From a virus, in the IMG/VR virus record IMGVR_UViG_3300048546_000154, positions 35,490-99,489 of that record: DNA of 64,000 nucleotides; one strand, given 5' to 3'. Made by a program: the position numbers and the translations under genes. Positions 697-35,740 of this stretch are shown here, piece after piece. Below the pieces are notes generated by a model, which had not been told where the DNA came from, made no database searches, and saw nothing but the letters and a program-made list of their open reading frames with translations. Positions within the stretch are counted from its first letter, which is position 1; each line of letters starts with the position of its first letter.

Positions 697-1431
697 ATGG
701 CTTTACCAAAAATTGAAGTCCCAACATATAAGTTAACTCTACCAAGTGAAGACACGGTAGTAGAGTTTAGACCATTTCTGGTCAAAGAAGAGAAGATATT
801 AATGCTAGCGATGGAAGAGAAGAATGACGCTCAAATGAAAGCCGCCGTTAGAGATTTAATTAACTCTTGTACTTTCGGAAAATTAGAAGTAACCAAACTA
901 CCACTATTTGACATAGAATATTTGTTTTTAAATATTCGTGCAAAGTCAGTAGGTGAGATTGCGTCTTTTAAAGTTTTCTGTCCAGAAGATAAGGTTACAC
1001 TTATACCTGTTGATGTAGACTTAACAAAGGTTGAGGTACAGGTTGATGACGAACACACAAATAAGATAGTATTAGACGAAGAAAGAAATCTTGGTATTAG
1101 TATGAACTATCCTAACATTGACACTATTCCATTGGGCGTAGATGAAGATATGAATACAGAAGCAATTTTTAAAACAATTGTTGAATGTATTGACTACATC
1201 TATGAGGGGGAACAAGTGCATAAAGCGAAAGATAGTACAAAGGCTGAACTAATTGATTTTTTCAATAATTTAAATACCAATCAATTTAAACTAATCAGAA
1301 AATTCTTTGACACAATGCCGAAGTTAAGGCACGAAGTCAAGGTTATAAATCCTAAAACAAAGAAAGAGAGTGTGGTTACACTCCAAGGACTATCTGATTT
1401 TTTCGTATCTGCCTCTCCCACAACAACCTAG
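697..1431 (+). CDS. gp26: gp26-like baseplate hub/tail assembly chaperone
   Basis: This 244-residue protein resembles the T4 gp26/T4_baseplate family (N-terminal PTYKLTLPSEDTVVEFRPF, then VKEEKILMLAMEE), annotated as hub subunit or hub assembly protein. The start follows AAGGAGAT. The gene stands two to three thousand bases before the tape measure gene, the place where many tailed phages keep the tail assembly chaperone pair (gpG/gpGT of lambda). The last codons contain a T TTT TTC slip site that leads into a longer reading frame (next entry), so the 244-residue form is probably the shorter of two products. It would act in the host cytoplasm, helping assembly of the hub and tape measure. Confidence 0.8.
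   Translation: MALPKIEVPTYKLTLPSEDTVVEFRPFLVKEEKILMLAMEEKNDAQMKAAVRDLINSCTFGKLEVTKLPLFDIEYLFLNIRAKSVGEIASFKVFCPEDKVTLIPVDVDLTKVEVQVDDEHTNKIVLDEERNLGISMNYPNIDTIPLGVDEDMNTEAIFKTIVECIDYIYEGEQVHKAKDSTKAELIDFFNNLNTNQFKLIRKFFDTMPKLRHEVKVINPKTKKESVVTLQGLSDFFVSASPTTT
1398..1404 (+). promoter_or_regulatory. Candidate -1 ribosomal frameshift site (T TTT TTC)
   Basis: The heptamer T TTT TTC lies exactly in the X XXY YYZ register of the gp26-like frame (GAT TTT TTC GTA), eight codons before its stop. An internal Shine-Dalgarno-like AAGGAC at 1385-1390 sits about 8-9 bases upstream, the kind of stimulator used by bacterial -1 sites. The -1 frame is open from here to 1607. Confidence 0.75.
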
Positions 1432-1607
1432 AGGCGTACTTTGAGACTAACTTTGCATTAATGCAACATCATAAGTATAGTCTAACAGAATTGGATTCTC
1501 TATTTCCTTGGGAAAAAGAGGTTTATGTTTCTTTACTGGTTAAACACATTAAAGAAGAAAAAGAAAAAGCAAGAAGAGATAATATGGGCAAACCTGGTAC
1601 TAAATAA
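1404..1607 (+). CDS. C-terminal frameshift extension of gp26-like protein
   Basis: After a -1 shift at the slip site, 67 further codons follow before TAA at 1605, giving a fusion of about 303 residues. The extension reads LEAYFETNFALMQHHKYSL, then TELDSLFPWEKEVYVSLLVK and a Lys/Glu-rich end, a well-formed protein sequence that begins before any ATG in its frame. An internal ATG at 1461 could give a 48-residue product, but it has no clear ribosome binding site and would lose the conserved-looking first third. I infer a gpG/gpGT-type pair: short chaperone plus minor frameshifted form that binds the tape measure protein. Confidence 0.75.
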   Translation, partial: RICLSHNNLEAYFETNFALMQHHKYSLTELDSLFPWEKEVYVSLLVKHIKEEKEKARRDNMGKPGTK

Positions 1608-2880: not shown

Positions 2881-3204
2881 ATGGCTGAAGAGATAAAAAA
2901 AGAAGTTAAGGTTGCAGAACCTAAACAGAAAATACAAGTTGATTTAGAAGTAGATACTTCAATCAAAGACCTAGGTATTAATCCATATGCAAAGATAATT
3001 CATATGGCAAGAGCAGTTGACGCTTGGAGAATATTTCCAAGATTGTTTTTGACCGTTTATATTGTTTTATTATACAAATGTGTAATTTGGTATATGGACT
3101 TACAGGCACCTACTATGGAACAAAGTGGGTTAATCAGTATCGTTGTTGGTGCTGGTGCAGCTTGGTTTGGTCTATATACTGGTTCAAGTAAAAATAAGAA
3201 ATAG
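2881..3204 (+). CDS. Two-helix membrane protein, holin candidate
   Basis: 107 residues: a charged Lys/Glu-rich N-terminal third, then two hydrophobic segments (FLTVYIVLLYKCVIWYM and LISIVVGAGAAWFGLYTG) and a basic tail KNKK. The small size, two membrane spans and the basic C-terminus are compatible with a class II-like holin, and the segment WRIFPRLFLTVYIVLLYK ahead of a GAGAAWFGLY helix is distinctive. Ribosome binding site GGAGTT precedes the ATG. It sits immediately before the tape measure gene; no endolysin is seen in the window, so the holin call is inference. Confidence 0.6.
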   Translation: MAEEIKKEVKVAEPKQKIQVDLEVDTSIKDLGINPYAKIIHMARAVDAWRIFPRLFLTVYIVLLYKCVIWYMDLQAPTMEQSGLISIVVGAGAAWFGLYTGSSKNKK

Positions 3205-3214
3205 GAAATAAGAA

Positions 3215-4771
3215 ATGGCTGCCACTACACTTTCAAACGCTACACAAGACGAACTACTTTCCATATTCAAAGTAATATCAAAGAAGTCTATCCAATCAGT
3301 TGATGGACTAGTTAAGTCAACTCAGCCTAAATTAAACAAACTTGTTGCAGAAACTATTGACGCATTTAGAGATACACCTAGAAGTGTAAATGATGTGATG
3401 AATAAACTTGTTAATAGAATGGGTGAATTAAACTATTCTGTTGAAGACTTGACAAGAGGTATGGAAAAGGCAGACATATCAGAAGATATGAAATCTCTAC
3501 AAGACGCATTGCGTAATAGAGAACAGATGATTGTTGTTGCAGAAAAAGAAGCAAGTGAATTAAGAAAACAAGGTGTAGCAGTACAAGTAAAGATGACCGA
3601 AGATGGTGCAAAGGCAGTTGTACTATCAACAAAACAATTGCAGATGGAACAAGAAAAACTTGTACAATCTGAAAAGAGAATAGTATCAAACGAACAAGAA
3701 CTATTAAAGAAAACAAAGAATTTACACAAACTAGATGAAACTAGTAGACAAAAAGAAGAAACGCTTATCAAAGAGAAGTCAGTACTACTAACAAAAGAAC
3801 GAGAAGATTTAGACGCAAAAAGAGAAGCACTTGGTGGCGATACTTCTGATAACTTTGGTGGTCAAGGTGGTGATATGATAGACCCACGAGGTATGTTTGC
3901 TGGTATATCTGATACCTTTATGGGTATCAAAGATAGTATTACAGGACCATTTGTAGAACTTGGCGATATGGCAAAAAGAATGGGTACTTCATTTATGAAC
4001 TTCGGTAAAGCAATGAAGACACCAATCAAATCATTAAAACTATTTGGTGCAAGTCTTATGATTTCAGTTGTACCTATGTTGTTATGGGCACTTGGTATAT
4101 TAGCATTGATTGCTGTAATTGCAATTGCAATATTTAAATTTCACGCAATCAAAGACGCTATCATAGACGCATATAACTATCTAGGAGATGTCTTTAGAAA
4201 GTTTGGTGAATACTTAATGGAGAAATGGAATGCGTTTGTAGGTTATATAGGTGGACTAAAAGATTCATTAATGGAGAAGTGGGATAACTTTACACAAGGT
4301 ATATCTGATATGGTTGATTATGTAAGTACTCTAGGAAGTAGAATATGGGATAGTATTAAAAGTGCATTTGGTAGTATCGGTGATTATATATCAGACATAT
4401 TTAAAAGAATCTATAATGGTTTCGTAGATAAGTTTGGTAAGTATATAGGTATGGAAAAAGTTGCATTGTCAAGTGATAAGGCAACAATGACAGAACCTAA
4501 AAGTATAGAAGGTGAAGCACAAAAAGCAGAAATACCTGAAGAGAAAAAGAAATACTTTAGTGGCACAGATAAGGCAGACCAAACAGGTAATGCAAAAGCA
4601 CTAAAAGAAGCAGGTGATACAAATACAGCAAACTCATCTAACAATGTTGGTATAACACAAGACAACAAACAAATTATAACCACAAACAATGCAGAATCAC
4701 AATTTGTAGGTAGTGGTAATAGAAATCCAGACCCAGCGTCTAAATGGGAAAGACTAACAGCAACAACTTAA
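3215..4771 (+). CDS. Tail tape measure protein
   Basis: 518 residues. Residues about 90-205 form a long charged coiled coil; a Gly-rich linker follows, then a strongly hydrophobic stretch at about 278-306 and a helical region with repeated FGEYLMEKW/LKDSLMEKWDNF elements, ending in a polar, low-complexity tail. This architecture, and its place after the tail chaperone pair and before gp48, fit the tape measure protein (functional counterpart of T4 gp29, 590 residues), which sets tail length inside the tube and may enter the host membrane on injection. The 3' end overlaps the convergent gp4 gene by 4 bases. Confidence 0.75.
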   Translation: MAATTLSNATQDELLSIFKVISKKSIQSVDGLVKSTQPKLNKLVAETIDAFRDTPRSVNDVMNKLVNRMGELNYSVEDLTRGMEKADISEDMKSLQDALRNREQMIVVAEKEASELRKQGVAVQVKMTEDGAKAVVLSTKQLQMEQEKLVQSEKRIVSNEQELLKKTKNLHKLDETSRQKEETLIKEKSVLLTKEREDLDAKREALGGDTSDNFGGQGGDMIDPRGMFAGISDTFMGIKDSITGPFVELGDMAKRMGTSFMNFGKAMKTPIKSLKLFGASLMISVVPMLLWALGILALIAVIAIAIFKFHAIKDAIIDAYNYLGDVFRKFGEYLMEKWNAFVGYIGGLKDSLMEKWDNFTQGISDMVDYVSTLGSRIWDSIKSAFGSIGDYISDIFKRIYNGFVDKFGKYIGMEKVALSSDKATMTEPKSIEGEAQKAEIPEEKKKYFSGTDKADQTGNAKALKEAGDTNTANSSNNVGITQDNKQIITTNNAESQFVGSGNRNPDPASKWERLTATT

Positions 4772-34687: not shown

Positions 34688-35740
34688 ATGCGAGAGTTTT
34701 TAATAGACCCCAAAAGAGACCCAGAGCAAGAGTACACTATTCATTTATTTGAATTTTGTAATTTGCGTTGTAATTTCTGTTGGCAGAACCACGACAATAA
34801 AATTGGTGTTGATAATGTGGTTGATAAACTTCCCTCTATAGAAAAATTTGTTTCAAAAGAAATGTATATGAAGGTCACCTTTAATATTATGGGTGGTGAA
34901 GTCTTTGCACCTGCAATCTATAACAGAAGTTTAAATGAAGGTTACAAACTCCTATCAAAAGGCATACAAAAGATATGTCAAAAGTACGATAAAGAATTTT
35001 CAATCAATTGGGTATCTAACTTGGTTACATCACCTGATGGTAATGAACTTATTATGGACTTACTCAAATGGTCCAGAGAAGAAGATATACCTTGTAGACT
35101 TACAACAAGTTATGACCCACGAGGTAGATTTAATAAAAAAGACTTTGAAATATTTAAATCTAATGTAGATTATTGGGGTGATGAAGTAACCTGTTTTTCT
35201 TGTTTACTTACAAGACCTAATATTAACTTTTATTTAAATGAAGGCGATGAATACTTTGACTATCTGTATGAACAAGGTAAGTATATTTACTTTGATTACT
35301 ATATGCCAGATGAACACGCAAAGTTTAATATGCCTAGTGATGAACTATTATTAAAGTTTTTTAAACATTGTGTTGACAAATATCCTAATGTTCATCCTGT
35401 TAGAGATTGGATATTTAACAAAAAGAATTATGCAAGTTGTAGAGTTTCAAAACTTGTATTAGCAGATGGTACATTATGTCAATGTGGTAACCTTGTACAA
35501 GAAGAACAAGATATAAGTCAATACAAGTCGCCCATTAAACCTAGAGACAATAGTATAATAGAAAACTCTTTCCTAGAGAAGTATAATTGTAGTAGTTGCG
35601 AATTTTTAGATAGATGTACACTTGGCTGTTTTATGAACCACGATTATAGATATAAGGAGGAGTTGGATGAATGTGTTTACAAACTTACGCACAGATATAT
35701 TGAAGATGTACGATTACAGCGAAACTATATCGCAAACTAA
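34688..35740 (+). CDS. Radical SAM/SPASM-like protein 2
   Basis: 350 residues. Cys24-x3-Cys28-x2-Cys31 in FEFCNLRCNFCWQ; NIMGGEVFAP around residues 67-74 is the GGE motif. C-terminal cysteines 251, 264, 266, 301, 304, 310, 314 and 329 (CQCGN; CSSCEFLDRCTLGC) fit one or two auxiliary clusters of SPASM type. GGAGTTAAA precedes the start. The end overlaps the next gene by 74 bases, which carries its own AAGGAGGAG site. Substrate unknown. Confidence 0.87.
   Translation: MREFLIDPKRDPEQEYTIHLFEFCNLRCNFCWQNHDNKIGVDNVVDKLPSIEKFVSKEMYMKVTFNIMGGEVFAPAIYNRSLNEGYKLLSKGIQKICQKYDKEFSINWVSNLVTSPDGNELIMDLLKWSREEDIPCRLTTSYDPRGRFNKKDFEIFKSNVDYWGDEVTCFSCLLTRPNINFYLNEGDEYFDYLYEQGKYIYFDYYMPDEHAKFNMPSDELLLKFFKHCVDKYPNVHPVRDWIFNKKNYASCRVSKLVLADGTLCQCGNLVQEEQDISQYKSPIKPRDNSIIENSFLEKYNCSSCEFLDRCTLGCFMNHDYRYKEELDECVYKLTHRYIEDVRLQRNYIAN

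Follow-up and report, generated by a model that had tools for sequence, protein, structure and literature searches.

The stretch analysed (the window: 64,000 nt of viral record IMGVR_UViG_3300048546_000154, positions 35,490–99,489; the coordinates below are those of the window, and all features lie on the plus strand) carries a gp26-like gene at 697–1431 whose 0-frame product has 244 aa. The gene was matched by PF12322 (T4_baseplate; E = 2.3e-64; 217.5 bits in the profile search, gathering cut-off 24.5 bits) and by phrog_150 (3e-70), and its product was assigned as the putative short form (TAC-N, gpG-like) of a tail-assembly chaperone pair. Its 3' end reads CAA GGA CTA TCT GAT TTT TTC GTA TCT GCC TCT CCC ACA ACA ACC TAG; the slippery heptamer T_TTT_TTC (1398–1404) lies there in the X_XXY_YYZ phase suited to a −1 shift, eight codons ahead of TAG (1429–1431), as the sequence-only reading had stated. 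Two candidate stimulators flank the heptamer: the Shine-Dalgarno-like AAGGA (1385–1389), 8 nt upstream, and a hairpin, GCCTCT (1411–1416)/AGAGGC (1430–1435), that occupies 1411–1435 and begins 6 nt after the heptamer.

In the −1 frame no stop occurs from 1398 until TAA (1605–1607). The extension (1404–1607; 67 codons and TAA; TAC-C, gpT-like; the 'gp51' of cyanophages) was assigned from its match to phrog_634 and its alignment with the C-terminus of T4 gp51; the long form would have 236 + 67 = 303 aa, with the peptide ...LSDFFRICLSHNNLEAYFETNF... across the frameshift junction. That the extension starts ahead of any start codon in its frame, as had been noted from the letters, was borne out; the first such codon is ATG at 1461 (extension codon 20). 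The arrangement is unique in the window: among 64 non-nested ORFs of at least 100 aa, one combined an in-phase X_XXY_YYZ heptamer at most 15 codons from its stop with a −1 extension of more than 60 nt past that stop.

Downstream, four small genes (at 1636, 2097, 2410 and 2881) are followed by a tape measure candidate at 3215–4771 (518 aa; phrog_1272, tape measure, 7.7e-7; position), the presumed client of the pair; the sequence-only reading had given the same order. The last of the four (2881–3204; phrog_10198, 1.6e-19; synteny) encodes a small putative membrane protein, and its homologue is the single gene, against four in the window, that separates the chaperone pair from the tape measure gene in the nearest relatives (L005–L008). 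In most relatives a large gene follows the pair, either immediately or with one to a few small genes in between; tape-measure profiles were matched in the window and in Vibrio K566, and several other large genes gave no named match. The three small genes of 1636–2865 (153, 101 and 151 aa; two with signal-peptide-like starts, phrog_24646 in common) are present in L004 and L009 and absent from this place in L005–L008; a homologue of the first (1636) was found upstream of gp26 in L010 and L011. Delftia phage PhiW-14 (L088, 3759–3965) is an exception: a terminator and a helicase gene come after its chaperone pair, and no tape measure gene adjoins it.

Conservation and codon choice at the slip site

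In the alignment of homologues, which the sequence-only reading had proposed as a check, slip site and −1 extension were kept together in every relative checked. The heptamer, T_TTT_TT(C/T/A), was found in phase, 0–8 codons ahead of the stop and followed by a homologous −1 extension, at 184/184 readable loci (89, with 8 further annotated phages and 87 further contigs; the loci are non-independent and include near-duplicates). Within a set of 84 loci (83 fetched and the window), T_TTT_TTC or T_TTT_TTT stood in phase wherever the 3' end was readable, and the extension followed directly after the heptamer in the −1 frame (tblastn) in nearly all; the sequences of L013 and L061 break off too soon for tblastn to match the extension. 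The heptamer spans phages from Kyanoviridae to those of Vibrio, Aeromonas, Stenotrophomonas, Delftia, Rhizobium and Ochrobactrum; a scan with the Vibrio K566 protein as query returned no loci.

The 8-codon 0-frame tail after the slip site (1405–1431 in the window) is kept in L001, L004–L012 and other near relatives; its stop codon shares bases with the 3' arm of the hairpin, and other clades stop 0–2 codons past the slip site.

Conservation of this kind would also be expected if the heptamer were a by-product of a conserved Asp-Phe-Phe written in A+T-rich codons, with no shift; Phe-Phe is indeed conserved, and most T4-like gp26 proteins have it too. Codon choice was set against each gene's own codon usage as the null: over 35 clusters (<75% identity) the first Phe codon was always TTT (p 10^-5.6) and the codon before Phe-Phe always ended in T (p 10^-8.0), total p 10^-13.6, phages with 54–56% G+C included; these probabilities are a guide, not exact, because the clusters share ancestry. 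Among T4-like phages whose gp51 is a gene of its own, 10/10 gp26 genes with a readable 3' end lacked the heptamer; seven of these ten keep Phe-Phe and encode it as TTC TTT after GAG or GAA. In Pseudoalteromonas phage XG4 (L124) the second Phe is replaced by Leu, yet T_TTT_TTA remains slippery. Against these three observations, the chance that the heptamer is a mere by-product is next to negligible.

Transcriptional slippage on the run of six T, in place of ribosomal frameshifting, could in principle produce the long form; the site is a homopolymer run, and T7 stands in place of T6 in some relatives. Polymerase slippage usually needs runs longer than 6–7 T, so that the run is short for it; the exact codon phase and the third-base C are retained, and the distance from heptamer to hairpin is one usual for ribosomal frameshifting, all of which makes slippage by the polymerase very unlikely.

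Candidate stimulators

The sequence-only reading had named AAGGAC as a stimulator. The element is in place, and across the family the Shine-Dalgarno-like pairing upstream of the heptamer exceeds that of synonymous shuffles (Stouffer z −6.5), strongly so in P-SSM2-like phages (GGAGGG); in the window alone the excess is weak (z −0.86).

The downstream element was evaluated by folding the 41 nt after the heptamer against shuffles preserving the −1 frame peptide. The window hairpin gave −9.3 kcal/mol vs a synonymous-shuffle mean of −3.1 (z −3.1, p 0.010); over 42 representatives the excess reached Stouffer z −13.9, 57% of them being individually below 0.05. The marine-clade hairpin, about 6 nt past the heptamer, is stronger than the encoded peptide requires. 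The stem of the P-SSM2-type clade has mostly 10–12 bp, and one of its pairs appears as T-A, A-T, G-C and C-G. No hairpin excess was found in the Straboviridae, Delftia and Stenotrophomonas members (shuffle test).

A single hairpin common to the whole family was considered and rejected: the pelagiphage and P-SSM2 clades differ in register (pair sums 38 and 42), and Straboviridae have none.

The extension: domain or separate gene

The extension of the window matches phrog_634, 'baseplate hub assembly catalyst' (gp51 family), at 1.2e-26, and the same profile was matched by 17/17 diverse extensions; Pfam gave no model for it. In many GenBank records this −1 ORF is annotated as a separate small gene ('gp51') with its own ATG, and re-initiation would be possible in L086, L087, L088, L124 and L125, where an ATG overlaps or adjoins the 0-frame stop. 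Across the family, however, the first ATG stands at ten different codon offsets (1, 2, 3, 6, 12, 16, 18, 19, 31 and 32) in a domain of 57–67 codons, and the anti-Shine-Dalgarno pairing energy upstream of it has a median of +0.1 kcal/mol vs −5.8 at gp26 starts. Homology of the extension begins from its first codons, upstream of the usual ATG, and residues there are conserved; substitutions ahead of the ATG fall mainly on the third base of −1 codons (54% vs 25% and 21%), the bias being weaker than further downstream. A separate gene would, in addition, leave the invariant heptamer unexplained.

An independent small gene was rejected on its start position, the missing Shine-Dalgarno and the residues conserved upstream of the ATG, and we regard it as highly improbable. 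The sequence-only reading had named a plain stop with a small gene bearing its own start and ribosome binding site as the finding that would speak against a frameshift; scattered ATGs and the median pairing energy were found instead.

By its sequence, then, the one gene of this marine T4-like virus very probably gives rise to two tail-assembly chaperones, short and long, by −1 ribosomal frameshifting. Most ribosomes would stop at 1429 and release the 244-aa short form; a minority would slip by −1 on U_UUU_UUC through tandem re-pairing of tRNA-Phe and read on to 1607, and the resulting 303-aa long form would bear the 67-aa C-terminal domain. On the model of lambda gpG/gpGT, the N-terminal part common to both forms may bind the tape measure protein, the rarer C-terminal domain may recruit tail-tube subunits, and both forms would leave before the virion is completed. 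The sequences themselves show a conserved slip site and extension, selection acting on codons and hairpin, and paralogy with T4 gp26/gp51; that the shift takes place, how efficient it is and that the products act as chaperones are points that we infer.

Fold prediction was carried out for both forms, the long one being represented by a native fused T4-like gp51 (L101). The gp51 model has a mean pLDDT of 89.5, and its helices at residues 208–245 are the counterpart of the extension; the predicted short form of the window has pLDDT 84.6 and a low-confidence C-terminal tail from residue 238. Foldseek of the predicted folds against solved structures gave no significant relative; as to an N-domain fold of the HK97 gp13 kind, HK97 chaperone 2ob9 was returned at E 3.6, which is not significant (TM by target 0.38; rmsd of 3.0 across 55 columns). 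A sequence search of solved structures with the chaperone domain or the extension gave nothing useful.

The chaperone pair in T4 and other phages

Both T4 gp26 and T4 gp51 belong to PF12322 and are direct, if weak, homologues of each other; gp51 is matched by phrog_150 over almost all of its length and by phrog_634 in its C-terminal part, and its C-terminal 48 residues align with the −1 extension. From the shared families, the direct homology and the aligned C-terminus of gp51 it follows that T4 has a gene for each form: gp26 is the short one, and gp51 is the long one, in which the extension is joined in frame to a gp26-like domain. T4 thus shares with the window PF12322 and the C-terminal extension borne by gp51; unlike the window, it has two divergently transcribed genes, no frameshift and no heptamer. 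Both T4 proteins are listed as hub assembly chaperones, gp51 being required yet absent from the final particle (PMC3004832). The gp51 of cyanophages was described by Sullivan et al. (2010) as having about 20% of the T4 length, with the first 200 residues missing, and frameshifting was unmentioned (PMC3037559); the protein appears truncated because it would be the frameshift-encoded C-terminal part. In one locus (L100, 2001–2752) an apparent indel at about codon 118 splits a T4-like gp51; it could be a sequencing error or a real disruption.

In Ackermannviridae (L089, 2989–3965; L102–L119) a gp51-like −1 extension lies behind GAR_ATT_TTC_ATY_TAA, and no X_XXY_YYZ heptamer was found at the ends of their gp26-like genes. 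The chances seem about even that one required pair is served by three decoding strategies: a Kyanoviridae-type frameshift driven by two selected RNA elements (the Shine-Dalgarno-like motif ahead of the slip site and, about 6 nt behind it, a hairpin specific to the clade), two genes in T4, and a −1 extension without canonical heptamer in Ackermannviridae.

The abstract of Vladimirov, Gautam and Davidson reportedly describes conservation of the frameshift across several groups of T4-like phages and the use of genes 26 and 51 by T4. Their paper (Virology 2022, 566:9–15), as far as it is quoted elsewhere, describes T4-like phages in which a short gene is accompanied by a longer, fused one (cited in PMC10885494) and T4-like TAC-N genes that contain poly-T slip signals (cited in PMC12846349). 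The T4-like TAC-N/TAC-NC as represented in these quotations are like those of the window in having short and long forms, a common N-terminal domain and poly-T slip sites. The sequence-only reading had offered the gp26-like family as a new member of the frameshifted chaperones; the membership is supported by the conserved site and extension, and the newness fails, because Vladimirov et al. (2022), to judge by the quoted parts, had made the same identification. An earlier review (2016) held G-T frameshifting to be conserved among long-tailed phages 'except T4' (PMC5009743).

Lambda gpG/gpGT resembles the window pair in its −1 frameshift near the 3' end and in the extra C-terminal domain on the long form, which in lambda takes part in building the tail around the tape measure protein (PMC5009743). 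No sequence homology between the two was found in the searches made, and the window differs in its slip site, T_TTT_TTC, and in the hairpin that many members have close downstream. The tail assembly chaperone of Vandenendeviridae/Andersonviridae likewise has a −1 shift, with a conserved motif, GTTTTT, and a largely unannotated extension (PMC12846349); these phages form another lineage, and the heptamer of the window family is T_TTT_TTY.

Since the principle is already published, the gain lies in evidence and detail; the 3' hairpin, the upstream Shine-Dalgarno-like element and the wide range of phages in which the site is conserved possibly add to the published work. The reading would correct the 'gp51' annotation in hundreds of marine phage genomes, the small ORF being a C-terminal domain and not a gene, and it would make the T4 supergroup a natural comparison of frameshifting with separate genes for the same chaperone pair.
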